Below are positions 15,229-37,112 of a stretch of DNA of 50,350 nt, piece after piece. The translations under genes were made by a program, and so were the position numbers. Within the stretch, counting starts at the first letter, position 1. Every line of letters starts with the position of its first letter. The notes beneath the pieces were generated by a model that saw only the letters and a list, made by a program, of their open reading frames with translations, searched no databases and was not told where the DNA came from. Origin of the DNA: Lentisphaera araneosa HTCC2155 (GTDB lineage Bacteria > Verrucomicrobiota > Lentisphaeria > Lentisphaerales > Lentisphaeraceae); the NCBI RefSeq assembly GCF_000170755.1, contig NZ_ABCK01000035.1, forward strand, positions 1 through 50,350. Direction: 5' to 3'.

Positions 15229-16815
15229 CTATTTTTTCTCTTTCGCATTGCGGAATGCAGCGTATTTATTTGAAATTTTGATGGCTTTTTGACGATCTGC
15301 TTCGCTATAATCCCAAAACTCATTAATGACTTGGTTAGCGATAAATTTTTCATGGTCAGCACCATTTTCTTGCCTCATTTGAGCGAATTGATCTTTTAGC
15401 TTCGCAATCAAGTCGGGGCTGGCTAGTTCATAGATATTATTTAATTCTTGGGGGTCTTTTTCGAGGTCATATAATTCCCAGGCTGGGGGAGTTTCAGGCT
15501 GAGAATCTTCGGGTTTGGCTCCGTAATAAAGGATGAGTTTATATTTTTTTGTGCGCATGCCAATGTGAGCGGGATTATCGTGATGAGCCATGTGCATCCA
15601 GTACTGATAATAAGCGGCTCGTTTCCAGTTTTTTGGTTCTTGCTTTGTTTCAAGAATTGATCTGAAGCTTCGTCCCTGCATGTAAGTAGGCGTTTTGACA
15701 CCGGCATAATCGAGCATCATGGCGGGGTAATCAATATTTTCGATAATTGCATCAGATTTTGAACCCGCTTTAATCGCCTTTGGGTAGCGTACAATGAAAG
15801 GCATACGCATGGTTTCTTCATAGGCCCAGCGCTTGTCTTGGTAATCGTGCTCGCCGAGCATGAAACCTTGGTCACCAGTGTAGATGATGATGGTGTTGTC
15901 GTAGATCTTTTCTTGTTTGAGGTAATCCACCAAACGTTTCATGTTATCATCGATGCCCTTGACACAGCGCAAGTATTTTTTGAGGTAGGTTTGATAAGCT
16001 GTTCTTTTTGCTGTAGTAGGATCGCTAATGCCTTTCGCCCAAGTTTTAGCGTAATTACGTCGCGTATTGCGCATGCCAATAGAAGTTCCGATATGATGAA
16101 TGAGTTCATCCTTGTGGCCTTTTGTCGCTAGTGAACCATTATTTTTGTTGTCCCAAAGACTGCTTGGCTCAGGGATTTTGACATCGGCCAGATAGCTTTC
16201 ATAGCGTGGTGCATAGTGAAAGAAATCATGGGGAGCTTTAAAATGAAACTTGAGAAAGAAAGCTTGATTTTTGTGACGTTTGTTACTGAGCCAATCAATA
16301 GCTGAATCAGTGAGACAATCTGAGGAATGCCCTTTCATAACGACGGGTGAACCCTTTTCATCTCCCAAGCTGCCCTCGAAGAAATTGGGGTCAAAATATT
16401 TTCCTTGACCGGGTAAAACTTTGTAGTAATCAAAGGCTGCAGGACGCTTCTTTAAATGCCACTTACCAATCATTGCGGTTTGATAGCCCGCCTTACGCAT
16501 TTCATGAGCGAGGTATTGTTGGTCAGAGGCAATGCTACCTTTGAGGTCAAGAACTCCGTTGATGTGAGCATATTGTCCGGTCATTATCGAGGCGCGACTG
16601 GGAGTGCAGATGGAATTTGAGCAGAAGGCGTTGGTCATGATGATGCCATCACGAGCAATTTTATCGATGTTGGGTGTAGGGTTGAGTGGAGCTAAACGTC
16701 CACCATAGGCCCCGATGGCCTGTGCAGTGTGGTCATCAGACATGATGAAAAGGATGTTGGGTTTTTCCACCGCAAATAAATGGAGGCAGGAAAGTATGAG
16801 CAAACAATATTTCAT
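15229..16815 (-). CDS. Secreted S1-family sulfatase, tandem paralogue B
   Basis: A 528-residue exported sulfatase (signal LLILSCLHLFAVE). The DD pair lies at 27-28 (FIMSDDHTAQA), and the formylglycine motif is CTPSRASIMTG with C70. Further active-site blocks are GKWHLKKRP, KFHFKAPHDFF and YTGDQGFMLGEHD. It is strongly similar over its whole length to the upstream neighbour (16831-18429), a tandem duplication. The two ORFs are 15 bp apart, and the FGE-like gene follows after 8 bp. Such KAPHD / GDQGFMLGEH sulfatases often act on glycosaminoglycan-like or algal glycans; the substrate is not proven. Confidence 0.94.
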   Translation of the reverse strand: MKYCLLILSCLHLFAVEKPNILFIMSDDHTAQAIGAYGGRLAPLNPTPNIDKIARDGIIMTNAFCSNSICTPSRASIMTGQYAHINGVLDLKGSIASDQQYLAHEMRKAGYQTAMIGKWHLKKRPAAFDYYKVLPGQGKYFDPNFFEGSLGDEKGSPVVMKGHSSDCLTDSAIDWLSNKRHKNQAFFLKFHFKAPHDFFHYAPRYESYLADVKIPEPSSLWDNKNNGSLATKGHKDELIHHIGTSIGMRNTRRNYAKTWAKGISDPTTAKRTAYQTYLKKYLRCVKGIDDNMKRLVDYLKQEKIYDNTIIIYTGDQGFMLGEHDYQDKRWAYEETMRMPFIVRYPKAIKAGSKSDAIIENIDYPAMMLDYAGVKTPTYMQGRSFRSILETKQEPKNWKRAAYYQYWMHMAHHDNPAHIGMRTKKYKLILYYGAKPEDSQPETPPAWELYDLEKDPQELNNIYELASPDLIAKLKDQFAQMRQENGADHEKFIANQVINEFWDYSEADRQKAIKISNKYAAFRNAKEKK

Positions 16816-16830
16816 TGATGGATTCCTAGT

Positions 16831-18429
16831 TTATTTTTTCTTCTTTTTGAGAGGGGCTTTATAGTTTTTATAAGCATGAGAAAGTTCAATTGCCTTTTGT
16901 CGATCTTCACTGCTGTAGTCCCAAAATTCGTCAATTACTTTATTGCAGGCGAATTTAGGATCATCTTCTTTATATTTATGGCGCAAGTCTTTGAGTTCAG
17001 CTTTGAGCTTATTAATAATTTCTTGATACTCTGGATTGTCGTAGAGATTATTGCTCTCTTTAGGATCTTTACTGAGGTCGTAAAGTTCCCAGGCGGGTGG
17101 CGTCTGTGCCTGGTCGCTGTCTGTTTTCGCCCCATAGAAAAGGATGAGTTTGTAGCGTTTGGTGCGAATCGCAATGTGGGCAGGGTTATCGTGATGTGCC
17201 ATGTGCATCCAATAGTGGTAATAGGCGGCTTTTTTCCAGTTTTCACTTTCGACGCCGGACTCAAGAATGGATCGAAAGCTATAGCCTTGCATGTACTTCG
17301 GTCGTGCCACGCCAGCATAGTCCAGCATGGTTAAAGGGTAGTCGACATTTTCAATAATGGCGTCGGATGCGCTTCCAGCTGGAATAGTTTTTGGGTAACG
17401 TACAATAAAAGGCATGCGCATAGATTCCTCATAAGCCCAACGTTTATCTTGGTAGTCATGTTCACCCAGCATAAAACCCTGATCACCTGTATAAATAATG
17501 ACGGTATTGTCGTAGAGACCCTCTGCTTTGAGGTAATCAATGACACGCTTGAGGTTGTCGTCGACGCCTTTGACACAGCGTAAGTATGCTTTTAGGTAGC
17601 TTTGGTAAGCTTGTGATTTAGCTTGCTTGTTACTTAAATCAGGATCTTTTGCCCATTTTTTAGCGTAGTTACGGCGGTGGTTTCTACGACCAATAGAAGT
17701 TCCGATTTTGTTGATTAATTCATCTTGATATCCGCGTGTGGCAATGGAACCATTATTTTTATTATCCCAAAGGCTCGCTGGTTCCGGAATATGTGTGTCC
17801 GCTAAGTAAGATTCATAACGAGGAGCATATTCAAACATATCATGGGGTGCTTTGAAGTGAAATTTGAGGAAAAAGGCTTGGTCTTTTTTGCGGATGTTTT
17901 TAAACCAATGAAGTGTTGAATCCGCAACACAATCAGAAGAGTGACCTTCCATTTTTACTTTCTCACCTTTAGTGTCGCCAAGTTTACCTTCGTAGAATTC
18001 AGGGTTGAAGTACTTGCCCTGGCCTGGAAGAACTTTGTAGTAGTCAAAAGCGGCAGGGCGGTGTTTGAGGTGCCACTTACCGATGACAGCCGTTTGGTAG
18101 CCAGCTTTTTTCATTTCATTAGCTAGGTATTGATGTTCAGAATCTAGCTTGCCACCCAAAGTGGTGACGCCGTTCACCGCACTGTATTGCCCCGTCATAA
18201 TGGCAGCTCGACTTGGAGTGCAGATGGCATTATTACAAAAGGCATTGGTCATAATTATACCCTCTTGGGCGATGGAGTCGATTGTTGGTGTGGGATTTAA
18301 TTTTGCGAGACGACTATTGTAAACACCCACAGCTTGGGAGGTGTGGTCGTCAGACATGATGAAAAGGATGTTGGGTTTTTGTTCTGCAAGTAATGGCAGG
18401 CAAAGGAGGAAAAACAAAACTGACTTCAT
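16831..18429 (-). CDS. Secreted S1-family sulfatase, tandem paralogue A
   Basis: A 532-residue exported sulfatase (signal SVLFFLLCLPLLAE). It shares the DD pair (FIMSDDHTSQA), a CTPSRAAIMTG formylglycine site at C70, GKWHLKHRP, and YTGDQGFMLGEHD with paralogue B, and ends in a Lys-rich tail. It is the first gene of the operon sulfatase A, sulfatase B, FGE-like lipoprotein, with an AAGG site before the ATG. The divergent IclR regulator lies 150 bp upstream across a region with a perfect 10-bp inverted repeat, which makes regulation by that protein likely. Substrate unknown. Confidence 0.94.
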   Translation of the reverse strand: MKSVLFFLLCLPLLAEQKPNILFIMSDDHTSQAVGVYNSRLAKLNPTPTIDSIAQEGIIMTNAFCNNAICTPSRAAIMTGQYSAVNGVTTLGGKLDSEHQYLANEMKKAGYQTAVIGKWHLKHRPAAFDYYKVLPGQGKYFNPEFYEGKLGDTKGEKVKMEGHSSDCVADSTLHWFKNIRKKDQAFFLKFHFKAPHDMFEYAPRYESYLADTHIPEPASLWDNKNNGSIATRGYQDELINKIGTSIGRRNHRRNYAKKWAKDPDLSNKQAKSQAYQSYLKAYLRCVKGVDDNLKRVIDYLKAEGLYDNTVIIYTGDQGFMLGEHDYQDKRWAYEESMRMPFIVRYPKTIPAGSASDAIIENVDYPLTMLDYAGVARPKYMQGYSFRSILESGVESENWKKAAYYHYWMHMAHHDNPAHIAIRTKRYKLILFYGAKTDSDQAQTPPAWELYDLSKDPKESNNLYDNPEYQEIINKLKAELKDLRHKYKEDDPKFACNKVIDEFWDYSSEDRQKAIELSHAYKNYKAPLKKKKK

Positions 18430-32453: not shown

Positions 32454-33845
32454 GTGCAGTTAAGTTCACGCCGCCATTTAAAGCAGCTGATGGGAGTTTA
32501 TCAGAAGCACCCCTATCGCGATACGATAAAGCTCTTTATTATTACTGGAATTAGTATGTTATTGGCTTTCTATCCTATTTATGGGGGGATGCCCATACCT
32601 GAGCGCAGAGCCCTGTTTATTTTAATTCTTGCTGCAAGTTTGTGGATGACTGAGGCGCTTCCTGCCTTTGCGGTGGGCTTCCTAGTGATTGGGCTCTCAA
32701 TATTTTTACTTTCCCCAGAGAAAGGTGGGGAGATACCCTGGCAAACTTTTACTGAGACTTGGTCGAGCCCGATTATCTGGTTGTTCTTAGGTGGTTTAGT
32801 CTTGGCGCGAGCGGCAGAAAAGACGGGAGTTAATAAGCGCGTTTCGTCAATCTTGTTGACGAAGCTGGGCTCATCTCATTCCATGCTTTTGTTTGGTATC
32901 ATGTTTTTGAGTTTTATTTTCTCCAACTTTATGAGTAATACAGCGACTGCGGCGATGATGTTGGGATTGATGGGGCCAGTTTTAGCGGGGTTCGCAAAAG
33001 GTGATAAGCGCAAGAAGGCTTATATAATGGCAGTGCCCTTAGGTGCTAATATTGGTGGTATGGGTAGTATTATTGGGACGCCCCCTAATGCCGTGGCAGC
33101 CGCTCTGCTCGATGGCAGAGGTGAGGGGGTGGATTTTTTAACCTGGATGTGGTACGGCATGCCACCCGCCTTGGTGTGTTTATTTGTTTTATGGTTTTAC
33201 TTGAGAACCACTTATTCATGCAAAGGTAAGAACGAAACTAAATTTGATTTTGAGCTTACGCCGATGAATAAAGACTCGGTGTTCGTTATGGTGGTTTTTT
33301 TGTTGACAATCATTTTGTGGTGTACAGGTAGTTTACATGGTGTGCCGGCATCAGTGGTGGCCTTTGTTCCGATTGTTCTTCTTCCGATCAATGGAGTGAT
33401 AGAAGCTGATGATATGCGAAGTTTGCCTTGGGACGTTTTGATTTTATTGGCAGGTGGCTTGACTCTGGGAGTAGCAGTCGAGAAAAGTGGTTTGGCTTAC
33501 ACTTTGGTGGAAGCGATGCCGAGTGCAGGAGAAAATATGTTTATCCTTGTCATTATGATGGCTTTTATGGCCTGTATAGTCTCGAATTTCATGAGTAATA
33601 CCGCTGCCGCTAATATTATCATGCCTATTGCTGCCGCGATGGCTGTGGGCTATGAGAAGCCCATGTTAGTTGTGATTGCGCTCGCTTCATCCACGGCCAT
33701 GTGCATGCCTGTTTCGACGCCACCGAATGCTTTAGCTTCATCGTCTGGTTTGCTAAAGGCGAGTGACTTTTTAGTTACGGGTATCATAGCGGCTATTGTG
33801 GGAGTGATTTCCTCACTCGTATGGATTCGCTTTATTCTTTGGTAA
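32454..33845 (+). CDS. SLC13 (DASS)-family sodium/anion symporter
   Basis: A 463-residue protein with about 11-12 membrane helices that imports dicarboxylates, sulfate or related anions with sodium. The two repeated substrate-site motifs are SNFMSNTATAAMM (first half) and SNFMSNTAAANIIMP (second half), each followed by a cluster of TPPNA (GTPPNAVAA, STPPNALAS). Translation starts at GTG 32454, supported by AGGAG 7 nt upstream. The last 30 nt lie in an 86-bp repeat present again 1.8 kb downstream. Given the nearby sulfatases sulfate is a possible substrate, but the sequence does not tell. Confidence 0.92.
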   Translation: MQLSSRRHLKQLMGVYQKHPYRDTIKLFIITGISMLLAFYPIYGGMPIPERRALFILILAASLWMTEALPAFAVGFLVIGLSIFLLSPEKGGEIPWQTFTETWSSPIIWLFLGGLVLARAAEKTGVNKRVSSILLTKLGSSHSMLLFGIMFLSFIFSNFMSNTATAAMMLGLMGPVLAGFAKGDKRKKAYIMAVPLGANIGGMGSIIGTPPNAVAAALLDGRGEGVDFLTWMWYGMPPALVCLFVLWFYLRTTYSCKGKNETKFDFELTPMNKDSVFVMVVFLLTIILWCTGSLHGVPASVVAFVPIVLLPINGVIEADDMRSLPWDVLILLAGGLTLGVAVEKSGLAYTLVEAMPSAGENMFILVIMMAFMACIVSNFMSNTAAANIIMPIAAAMAVGYEKPMLVVIALASSTAMCMPVSTPPNALASSSGLLKASDFLVTGIIAAIVGVISSLVWIRFILW

Positions 33846-33901
33846 AACTAAAGTCTAGAGAAATCCCAAAGCTTTGAGTCGAGCAATTGTGAAGGTCGAA
33901 T
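33816..33901. repeat. 86-bp direct repeat, copy 1 (includes the SLC13 3' end)
   Basis: Begins CTCGTATGGATTCG inside the SLC13 gene and ends GAAGGTCGAAT. The second copy at 35637-35722 matches at 82 of 86 positions with no gaps, offset 1821 bp. Identity stops sharply on both sides. Confidence 0.92.
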
Positions 33902-33997
33902 CTTTGCTTGAGCATTTTGCATCACGGCGCCAATAGCATAGATACAAAGTTGGTGGGGGATTATCGCCGGTACTCATTTGTAAACAAAGACCTTCAC
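33889..33997. other. Long nested imperfect hairpin downstream of the SLC13 gene
   Basis: Nested pairings: GTGAAGGTC (33889) with GACCTTCAC (33989), TTTG with CAAA, TGAG (33909) with CTCA (33973), CGGCG (33925) with CGCCG (33965), and CCAA (33930) with TTGG (33950). The left strand holds extra unpaired bases. No U-tract follows. It fills most of the space between the SLC13 gene and the convergent hypothetical gene. Confidence 0.5.
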
Positions 33998-34024
33998 GAA
34001 ACTATTATAGTTAAAATGAAGTAG

Positions 34025-34684
34025 TTATCTAAGGTTCACGTAATTTTCAGCATCAATGACTTTTGTGATATAAAAGAATTCAGCAGGCTTCTTTTGTGCA
34101 TCGCTAATATTATTGCCAGATGAGTTCATAACTGTAGCGAGATAGCCCTCTGCATAAATGACATCTTTGTTTTTGAACTGCTTGAATGAAGTAAGTATTT
34201 GTTGATTTTGTGGAATCACTGGTAAGTGCATATAATCCTTCTCAAAATCGTAACCATTCAAATTTTTTTCACAAAATACAATTCTACCTGGTTCACACTG
34301 GAATTTATTTAGGAATTTTGGATTAGACATTTTGTTCCAACCAATAAACATGCTTGCTGGACTAAACGCTTTCATGAACCCTTGATTGTCATAGCTTGAA
34401 ATTATCATACCTTTTAAAGAGATTTTTTTACGTGCCGTAAGGTAGAAATTACTTACTTTAGTTTTCTTTGGCTTTTTTAATGGTACGATTTTTGGTTTTG
34501 ATTGCACAAAGACCTTATCAATCATATCTCTTTCCGTTAAAACAGTACTTGAGCCATCTAGATTTTTCCTTCTTACTTCTTGGCTTGTATTGATTTCAAA
34601 ACTATCTGTTTTAATAGATATTTTTTTTGAGGTTAACAGGTTAAAAGCTCCGATTAAGCAGAGTAAAATAATAAAATATTTCAT
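34025..34684 (-). CDS. Hypothetical exported protein (islet gene 2)
   Basis: A 219-residue protein I do not recognise. A short signal or anchor (KYFIILLCLIGAFNLLTS) is followed by a Lys-rich mature part with no Cys-pair or catalytic motif; VSNFYLTARKKISLKGMIISSYDNQG looks like the start of a beta-rich domain. It follows the other islet gene by only 5 bp on the same strand. Both are visibly richer in A/T than flanking genes and lie between the two copies of the 86-bp repeat, which suggests acquisition as a unit. Confidence 0.72.
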   Translation of the reverse strand: MKYFIILLCLIGAFNLLTSKKISIKTDSFEINTSQEVRRKNLDGSSTVLTERDMIDKVFVQSKPKIVPLKKPKKTKVSNFYLTARKKISLKGMIISSYDNQGFMKAFSPASMFIGWNKMSNPKFLNKFQCEPGRIVFCEKNLNGYDFEKDYMHLPVIPQNQQILTSFKQFKNKDVIYAEGYLATVMNSSGNNISDAQKKPAEFFYITKVIDAENYVNLR

Positions 34685-34689
34685 AGTGG

Positions 34690-35394
34690 TTACTTGATTT
34701 TTAATACCGTTTTTGTGAAATATTCTTGGACTTCAGTATTTAGAGACTTTTCAGATAAAGCAGCTAATTGACTCTTTAAGAGACTTTTTTCTTCTGGAGT
34801 GTAAAAATACGAGAACTTTCTAATATTTTTATAGAGCATTTTTGCCATTAATAGTCGACATTCATCTGTGTAATTATCCCTATCACATTCTTTGATTAAT
34901 TTCACACCAACATGATGTAAATGATCTTTGATTTGATTGACAAGTTTGTTGTGCGCAACTTTATCCTTGGTGCGGTGTTTTTTTGAATGTTCTATAAATG
35001 TACTGACAACAGCTAATTGCGCCTCGCCATAAAAAAGGTTCATTTTAACCACAGATAGCTGTAAGTCTCTTCTTTTTTCTTCATTATAGGCTTTGACGTA
35101 TTGCTTCATAAGAAAAAAAGCTTCTTTAGCTATTTGTTCCCCGACTTCTATTCGTTTCCTAGTAGTTATTTTGCTAGAGCGCATAAAAGCTAGGTTTCTT
35201 AGATCTACAACTTGATCAAATAGCTTGCCCGAGCCTTCAGAATCCGCAACTGGCAGTTCTATTTTTTTATTTTTAATAGCTTCCGTAAATTGTTTATATT
35301 TCTGTATGCTCCAAGGTTTAAAATCGGCCGCAATTAGTGATTGAAAACTTAATGATATGACAATGATTGTAATGATGAATCGTGATAAATTCAT
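34690..35394 (-). CDS. Hypothetical exported helical protein (islet gene 1)
   Basis: From the ATG at 35394 the product is 234 residues. The start is chosen because a near-perfect GGAGGAG ribosome site lies 5 nt upstream and it yields a clean signal peptide (SRFIITIIVISLSFQSLIAADF); the frame is open further upstream but without such support. The mature part is Lys-rich and mostly helical, with no recognised motif. It precedes the second islet gene by 5 bp, so both are one operon. Function unknown. Confidence 0.75.
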   Translation of the reverse strand: MNLSRFIITIIVISLSFQSLIAADFKPWSIQKYKQFTEAIKNKKIELPVADSEGSGKLFDQVVDLRNLAFMRSSKITTRKRIEVGEQIAKEAFFLMKQYVKAYNEEKRRDLQLSVVKMNLFYGEAQLAVVSTFIEHSKKHRTKDKVAHNKLVNQIKDHLHHVGVKLIKECDRDNYTDECRLLMAKMLYKNIRKFSYFYTPEEKSLLKSQLAALSEKSLNTEVQEYFTKTVLKIK

Positions 35395-35537
35395 TTTAAC
35401 TCCTCCAAGATTTATATGTAAAAAAAATGGTAAGTATTTTGCTCTGATATTCAAGTAGAAGTTAATGTTTTTTAAATGAAAAATCATAGGAATCCTACTA
35501 AGGTTTCAGCAGATCATAATTCTATTTTACCATGAAA

Positions 35538-35603
35538 GCTTAACAAGTTGGGCAAGGTTTATTCATGAGTAGTTTCGTATAACTAATGATATGGAACTTA
35601 AGC
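35538..35603. other. Imperfect bulged hairpin, attC-like in shape
   Basis: GCTTAA-(CAA)-GTT pairs with AACTTAAGC at the base, and TCAT-(GAG)-TAGTT pairs with AACTAATGA nearer the tip, with a 6-nt loop (TCGTAT). All bulges are on one strand. The left end reads GCTTAAC, matching the integron core RYYYAAC; the right end lacks the matching G. The remaining sequence of the 346-bp gap 35395-35740 is AT-rich and contains repeat copy 2. Confidence 0.4.
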
Positions 35604-35636
35604 AGAAGGATACAGGTTTCTGGTATATCTAGAAAG

Positions 35637-35722
35637 CTCGTGTGGATTCGCATTATTCTTTGGTAAGACTAAAGCCTAGAGAAATCCCAAAGCTTTGAGT
35701 CGAGCAATTGTGAAGGTCGAAT
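35637..35722. repeat. 86-bp direct repeat, copy 2
   Basis: Matches 33816-33901 with four substitutions. It still spells the reading WIRIILW and stop that corresponds to the SLC13 C-terminus (WIRFILW), but no rest of a transporter gene lies before it. It ends 19 bp before the stop of the convergent LptA-like gene. Confidence 0.92.
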
Positions 35723-35740
35723 ATTCTCTTGCGGATGGAG

Positions 35741-36229
35741 TTACTTAGCTTGCTCATCTTTAACGTAAGTGTGCATCACGGGCTCATCAAAAAAGACTTC
35801 TCCGCTTTCTTGATAAATTGTTATACGTCTGGCTTCAATTTTGTTTTCATTCATGTAAATGACGGGCTTGCGAATGAGGATGATTTTCTTTTCTTTAGGT
35901 GAGTAGGCTACTTTTTCGGAAGTTGATTTTTTATCTTCCTCAGTAATAATCACGTCGCCTTCGGCAATGATTAAATGAATTTCATTTTTTGCATTGAGGT
36001 AGCAAGTCATCTTTTTTGCGGTCATGATCATCTTGCCACGAGTGACGTGAACATTATGTTCGAAGATAGCCATGCGCTTTTTGTCTTGGTTAAAGAAATC
36101 CAGTGTGTCAGAAGTTATGATGACTTCTTCAACATTGGCTTTCTTATCCTCAAGTTTTTCTTTCGAGTCTTGATTAGGCTCGGCTAAGAGGGTGAAGCTT
36201 AAAAGTAGAGCAAGAAAGAATTTAGTCAT
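35741..36229 (-). CDS. LptA/OstA-like periplasmic protein
   Basis: From the ATG at 36229, 162 residues. A signal peptide (KFFLALLLSFTLLAE) precedes an OstA-like beta-jellyroll: VEEVIITSDTLDFFNQDKKRMAIFEHNVHVTRGKMIMTAKKM, then IAEGDVIITEED and EKVAYSPKEKKIILI. This fold carries lipopolysaccharide across the periplasm in LptA. No lptB or lptC is adjacent, so it may be LptA itself or a related OstA-domain protein. The ATG overlaps the end of eboB by 8 nt, which excludes a longer upstream start. Confidence 0.85.
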   Translation of the reverse strand: MTKFFLALLLSFTLLAEPNQDSKEKLEDKKANVEEVIITSDTLDFFNQDKKRMAIFEHNVHVTRGKMIMTAKKMTCYLNAKNEIHLIIAEGDVIITEEDKKSTSEKVAYSPKEKKIILIRKPVIYMNENKIEARRITIYQESGEVFFDEPVMHTYVKDEQAK

Positions 36230-37112
36230 TAGTTCTTTTTTCAGGGCGTTGGCCACGGAGTACTGAGTTGCCTTGGAAAAGTAAACTTTGGTCAAATTCT
36301 AATTCAGTTTCTAATTCTGCTTTCGTGAAAACACCAGACTTTTCAAAGAGCGCAATGGGATTATCCCACATAACTTTTTGGATGATTTCATCCTCGAAGC
36401 CTTGGTCTTTCATGAGGCCAGCAGTGACAGGGACTGCTAGAGGATTAGAGATTCCCCAGTCTGCGGAACTATTCACTAAAATCCGATCAGAGCCGTATTG
36501 TTGAATGAGGTCAACCATGCGATCGGCATCCATTTTTGAGTGAGGGTAGATGGTGTGGCCTGCCCAGCAATTTGTCTCGAGCACATAGGGGAGGGTTTCT
36601 TCATTGTTGTGATCGATGACAACTAAAGTTTCGTCAATACCTACTTCACGAATGAGGTCAATAGTGGCTTTGACGCCATTGATCTTATCTCGGTGAGGCG
36701 TGTGAACAATAACTGGTAAGTCGCGTTCTTTGGCCATCTCGAGCTGAACTTTGAAGAGCTTGTGTTCGTGGTCAGTCATATCGTCGTAGCCAATTTCACC
36801 AACGCCCACGACATTATCTTTTTCAAGGTAGCGTGGGAGGAGTTCTAAGATTTCATCGGCGTATTCGGGGTTGTTAGCTTCTTTAGCATTAAGGCAAATA
36901 GTACAGAAGTGACGAATACCAAATTGTGAAGCGCGGAAGCGTTCCCAGCCAGTGATGGATTGGAAATAATCATCGAAGGAGCCTGCGTGAGTACGAGGTT
37001 GACCGAGCCAGAAAGCAGGTTCGATAACGGCGCGAATTCCAGCTTTATACATGGCCATGTAATCATCTGTAGTACGAGAAGTCATGTGAATATGTGGGTC
37101 AAAGAATTTCAT
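36222..37112 (-). CDS. eboB: EboB-like TatD-family metal hydrolase
   Basis: A 296-residue amidohydrolase-fold protein. Metal ligands appear as HIH (FDPHIHMTS), Glu in VGEIGYDDM, His in VIVHTPH, His in VVIDHNNEE, and Asp in NSSADWG. The wording AGIRAVIEPAFWLGQPRTHAGSF and WERFRASQFGIRH closely fits the EboB branch, not DNase TatD. The ebo cluster is linked to metabolite trafficking to the periplasm in cyanobacteria. It overlaps eboA by 4 nt and the LptA-like gene by 8 nt. Other ebo genes (C-F) are not in the window. Confidence 0.85.
   Translation of the reverse strand: MKFFDPHIHMTSRTTDDYMAMYKAGIRAVIEPAFWLGQPRTHAGSFDDYFQSITGWERFRASQFGIRHFCTICLNAKEANNPEYADEILELLPRYLEKDNVVGVGEIGYDDMTDHEHKLFKVQLEMAKERDLPVIVHTPHRDKINGVKATIDLIREVGIDETLVVIDHNNEETLPYVLETNCWAGHTIYPHSKMDADRMVDLIQQYGSDRILVNSSADWGISNPLAVPVTAGLMKDQGFEDEIIQKVMWDNPIALFEKSGVFTKAELETELEFDQSLLFQGNSVLRGQRPEKRTND

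Follow-up and report, generated by a model that had tools for sequence, protein, structure and literature searches.

The interval between the SLC13 transporter gene and the lptA-like gene of Lentisphaera araneosa almost certainly reflects two events: the gain of a small islet of foreign DNA and the loss of ttcA, which encodes tRNA 2-thiocytidine-32 synthetase. The locus lies in a stretch of DNA of 50,350 nt that was analysed as a whole and is referred to below as the window. As judged from the sequence, this history is visible in the order of the pieces, in two scraps of ttcA, in a frameshift and in the islet-free state of relatives that retain ttcA; the mechanism of capture and the timing of the events are suggested by the anatomy of the locus. 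The case is best filed as an ordinary insertion with a flanking duplication, followed by loss of ttcA, and there is no evidence of a self-integrating mobile element. An earlier note on the same DNA missed the main event, the destruction of ttcA. The features of the locus are listed in Table 1.

Table 1. Features of the SLC13–lptA interval (positions in the window).
Feature	Position	Strand	Support or remark
SLC13/DASS-family sodium:anion symporter, intact	32454..33845	+	TIGR00785 246 bits, PF00939
Repeat copy 1: last 30 nt of SLC13 and ttcA tail	33816..33934	+	33816–33901 common with copy 2
ttcA remnant 1: codons 224–251 and stop, in frame, severed by the islet	33848..33934	-	E 7e-9, 93% identity
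Inserted islet, 1702 bp, G+C 0.32	33935..35636	.	absent from the locus in both genus genomes
Islet gene A, 219 aa, predicted exported/membrane-anchored	34025..34684	-	unnamed family of exported proteins; domain predicted to be beta-rich (OB-like)
Islet gene B, 234 aa from ATG, predicted exported, all-helical	34690..35394	-	GGAGGAG ribosome-binding site
Repeat copy 2: last 30 nt of SLC13 (two substitutions) and ttcA tail	35637..35722	+	
ttcA remnant 2: start MSKLSNSIRK fused out of frame to the ttcA tail via CTTG microhomology	35669..35757	-	
lptA-like gene, intact	35741..36295	-	PF03968

The islet is bracketed by an 86-nt direct repeat (33816–33901 and 35637–35722), ungapped and with four substitutions (95.3% identity), with a start-to-start spacing of 1821; these measurements agree with those made earlier. 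The first 30 nt of the repeat are the last 30 of SLC13, stop codon included. In a search of the whole genome (6.02 Mb, 81 contigs), the block matched only its two known copies (E 2e-52 and 2e-34), so this two-copy repeat is far beyond chance. The 56 nt following SLC13 had been described as simply downstream of the gene; their extent is correct, but they are not intergenic, being mostly the coding 3′ end of the convergent gene ttcA on the opposite strand. The ttcA homology of copy 1 outruns the shared 86 nt and reaches about 33934. That the repeat spans two genes was revealed only by comparison with relatives. An assembly artefact is unlikely: four sites distinguish the copies, and each ttcA joint is unique sequence. 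The repeat folds no better than shuffled sequences, promoter and terminator scans gave no excess over shuffles, and no RNA or tRNA features were found at the repeat, the only one found being an upstream tRNA-Ser.

The same locus in both other genomes of the genus (n = 2) has the gene order SLC13 > < ttcA < lptA, without the islet and with a single copy of the repeated stretch lying within the convergent SLC13–ttcA arrangement. The gene order is conserved over ~14 kb per relative, about 6–8 kb on each side of the site, and the SLC13 orthologues are 94% and 89% identical (genomes G002 and G001, respectively). The SLC13–lptA interval of the relatives consists of one intact, convergent gene of 251 codons, identified as TtcA by the NCBIfam equivalog model NF007972 (357 and 361 bits, compared with a cut-off of 272). 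A few nt separate the SLC13 stop codon from that of ttcA, and lptA lies directly upstream of ttcA, overlapping its start. The junction comparison proposed in the earlier note thus gave an islet-free site with one repeat copy in each relative; the two arrangements named there as counting against mobility, islet genes at the same place and an SLC13 paralogue at the locus, were both absent, with no second transporter between SLC13 and lptA in either genome.

These data also bear on the suggestion, made in the same note, that copy 2 is the leftover of a lost second SLC13 gene, a tandem paralogue. Copy 2 does keep the SLC13-like C-terminus LVWIRIILW, in which one change is synonymous and another conservative. 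However, the homology stops abruptly 30 nt before the gene end (7/30 matches just upstream, the chance level), it continues in the other direction into ttcA, and each relative has a single SLC13 at the locus, together with ttcA. Given the upstream identity and the presence of ttcA in both relatives, a second SLC13 paralogue is rejected; this reading is scarcely credible. Since both ends of ttcA are kept in L. araneosa and the gene is whole in both relatives, the ancestral state appears to be ttcA-plus and islet-minus.

A TtcA search of the L. araneosa genome returned just two scraps, at 33851–33934 (codons 224–251) and 35672–35737 (from codon 230), and no intact ttcA genome-wide (E ≤ 0.001; the draft is 96.7% complete). 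A TtcA match at E ≤ 0.001 was present in 52 of 60 related genomes, mostly representing full-length TtcA. The translation of remnant 1 is IGAVMQNAQAKIRPSQLLDSKLWDFSRL, followed by the stop. In remnant 2, the fusion of the first ~10 ttcA codons to the last codons produces a 34-codon reading frame. Comparison with the relatives places CTTG at both ends of the missing piece, marking the deletion joint; this junction microhomology is short. Assuming the relatives' length of 756 nt, 89 nt of ttcA are left here and about 667 nt are missing; a deletion of 667 nt would shift the frame, as observed, since 667 is not divisible by three. The ttcA tail of copy 1 reaches beyond the point at which copy 2 is deleted. 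Copy 1 was thus derived from a ttcA without the deletion, which arose either later than the duplication or independently of it. No ttcA sequence hidden in the islet scored above shuffles. The loss leads to a prediction: the L. araneosa strain would have no 2-thiocytidine at tRNA position 32, and the sister species would have it.

The islet has a G+C content of 0.32, compared with 0.415 across the window, and its DNA is single copy, being absent elsewhere in the L. araneosa genome. As described earlier, it holds two AT-rich genes for predicted exported proteins. They are its only ORFs, both on the minus strand and both with signal-peptide-like starts; gene A starts 5 nt past the stop of gene B, and the ORF of gene B could reach 35487. 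Gene A is a divergent member of a widespread, unnamed family of exported proteins, with 39 loci in taxa that include Proteobacteria, Ignavibacteria and Omnitrophota. Proteins matching gene A at about 20–29% identity are encoded at other places in a single genome of the genus and a single genome of the family. No tested family member received a Pfam or NCBIfam name, the family profile found no solved structure, and plasmids gave no match to gene A. Much of the C-terminal family motif W.W.SS..R.DTG.GAC is lost in gene A. Its structural model is beta-rich (pLDDT 81), and the nearest folds are OB-fold proteins, with no significant match. Proteins of the gene A type (loci L069–L107) are about 200 aa long, share the motif DLALGWGPMSD...SANMHxIPAN...GYLV and have a predicted OB-like fold; no PDB match was obtained for the members tested. 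Gene B appears to be an orphan, with no relatives in 198 genomes of the class, in plasmids, in phages or in a pattern scan of genome contigs. Its model is of low confidence (pLDDT 61) and all-helical, matching generic helical proteins. Searches with PADLOC and PHROGs gave no match to defence or phage cargo. Today the islet is ordinary resident DNA with genes for two predicted exported proteins.

The earlier interpretation of the repeat was site-specific integration. It would make the islet an element integrated at the 3′ ends of SLC13 and ttcA, with the integrase lost or acting in trans. A direct repeat of gene 3′ ends encloses AT-rich foreign DNA, the islet-free site with one repeat copy exists in both genus relatives, and SLC13 (and, at first, ttcA) would have been left whole, as with gene-end att sites. 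A 10-bp palindrome, CAAAGCTTTG, also lies inside the shared block, but it belongs to the ttcA coding sequence, and such a palindrome is expected by chance in 119 nt with a probability of roughly 1 in 10. Moreover, the two islet ORFs gave no above-threshold match to a recombinase in Pfam, NCBIfam, PHROGs or PADLOC, in line with the earlier statement that no integrase is inside; gene B has weak OrfB_IS605/TnpB matches (E 0.02 and 0.014), below the curated cut-offs. The site is without a tRNA or known att type, the genome has no third copy of the block, and the two copies are imperfect, with four substitutions. Site-specific integration is therefore unlikely. The insertion of foreign DNA into an islet-free site, the other half of the earlier interpretation, stands.

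Beginning with the ancestral order SLC13 > < ttcA < lptA, in which SLC13 and ttcA would have been placed tail to tail, the following course of events is proposed. Foreign DNA with genes B and A would have entered the SLC13/ttcA junction, leaving a direct duplication of ~119 bp that comprised 30 nt of the SLC13 tail, a 2-nt spacer and 87 nt of the ttcA tail. Because this duplication spans the ends of both genes, both would have been whole just after the insertion, SLC13 ending in copy 1 and ttcA in copy 2. Later, a separate deletion of ~667 bp inside ttcA, between CTTG-containing sites, would have destroyed that gene. The route of entry may have been a single crossover of a small circular DNA that shared about 119 bp with the junction. 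In experiments with E. coli lacZ, a single crossover with a circle of truncated homology produced duplications of 109–950 bp beside the insert (PMC3240628). The anatomy of the locus points to such an entry as the most likely route, and the history of islet gain and ttcA loss is still fairly probable with this mechanism included. Neither a donor molecule nor an intermediate strain came to light, nor a further example with an empty site; the entry route is read from the anatomy of the locus. The 4.7% divergence of the copies could reflect an old event or a slightly different donor sequence.

Another way to obtain the same arrangement is a duplication and insertion during repair, with opposite-strand nicks about 119 nt apart, or with template switching during replication, and fill-in on both sides. 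Such a process would account for an insert placed precisely where the duplicated block forms its novel joint and for the lack of extended homology at either junction. However, the junctions carry no route-specific signature, and Ku protein is absent from the genome of L. araneosa and from those of six relatives, making classical end joining unlikely; non-classical end joining or template switching may have acted instead. Capture by end joining at a staggered break is less likely than a single crossover and is ranked below it, and repair as a whole is a rather improbable source of the duplication.

Flanking repeats alone are not a rare signature in L. araneosa and often represent decayed paralogues. 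In the surveyed 1.63 Mb of the genome, 11 two-copy direct repeats of 55–350 nt with 0.5–10 kb spacing were found, several of which flank small cassettes at gene ends. For two of these loci, compared with relatives, no clean empty site was found, and they are therefore not counted as parallels; no genome-wide insertion mechanism is claimed. At C1:434158–435077 (locus L154), a 148-bp, 100% identical direct repeat surrounds a 163-aa ORF; it looks recent and adjoins a run of small, related-looking genes. At C4:69544–73944 (L126), an 86-bp identical piece of a 148-aa gene is duplicated 4.3 kb away; the repeats enclose a sulfatase gene and a 567-aa gene, the latter sitting, with its neighbour, elsewhere in the relatives. 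At C1:25057–29920 (L109), the final 124 nt of a 311-aa gene reappear (91%) after 3.9 kb; the interval contains a pseudopilin-like gene and a gene for a 963-aa exported protein, a layout like that of the SLC13 islet. The window itself contains long, diverged direct repeats (15509–18226; 71–80%, with a spacing of 1611–1614 nt), apparently tandem paralogous genes. It is very doubtful that the SLC13/ttcA junction serves small, integrase-less cassettes as a place of entry at which about 100 bp of the gene ends are duplicated; if it did, further gene-end repeats that surround small cassettes in the genome would have arisen by the same process.

The preferred history, insertion with a flanking duplication and subsequent loss of ttcA, gives a readable case of a small foreign operon gained at a convergent junction with neither gene broken, after which one neighbour was lost. 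It also illustrates that foreign DNA between two copies of a gene 3′ end is by itself no proof of site-specific integration.

Integrase-borne islets at gene 3′ ends resemble the locus in the gene-end direct repeats that bracket foreign DNA. The present islet differs in having no integrase and no conserved core att identity, in its size of only 1.7 kb and in the lack of any further occupied or empty att block in the L. araneosa genome. Homology-facilitated illegitimate recombination, described in S. pneumoniae, Acinetobacter and P. stutzeri, links insertions with deletions of about 1 kb (PMC3240628); the SLC13 locus is similar in its insertion of about 1–2 kb, its deletion of similar size and its short microhomology. 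That process, however, replaces DNA and by itself gives no flanking duplication (PMC3240628), whereas the ttcA deletion, next to the second copy of the repeat, seems to be a separate event. The single-crossover insertions of truncated circles in E. coli differ from the islet, which is natural and may be old, has repeat copies diverged by 4.7% and had a neighbouring gene deleted later; in both, foreign DNA lies inside a direct duplication of the recipient locus, of about 100 bp upwards (PMC3240628).
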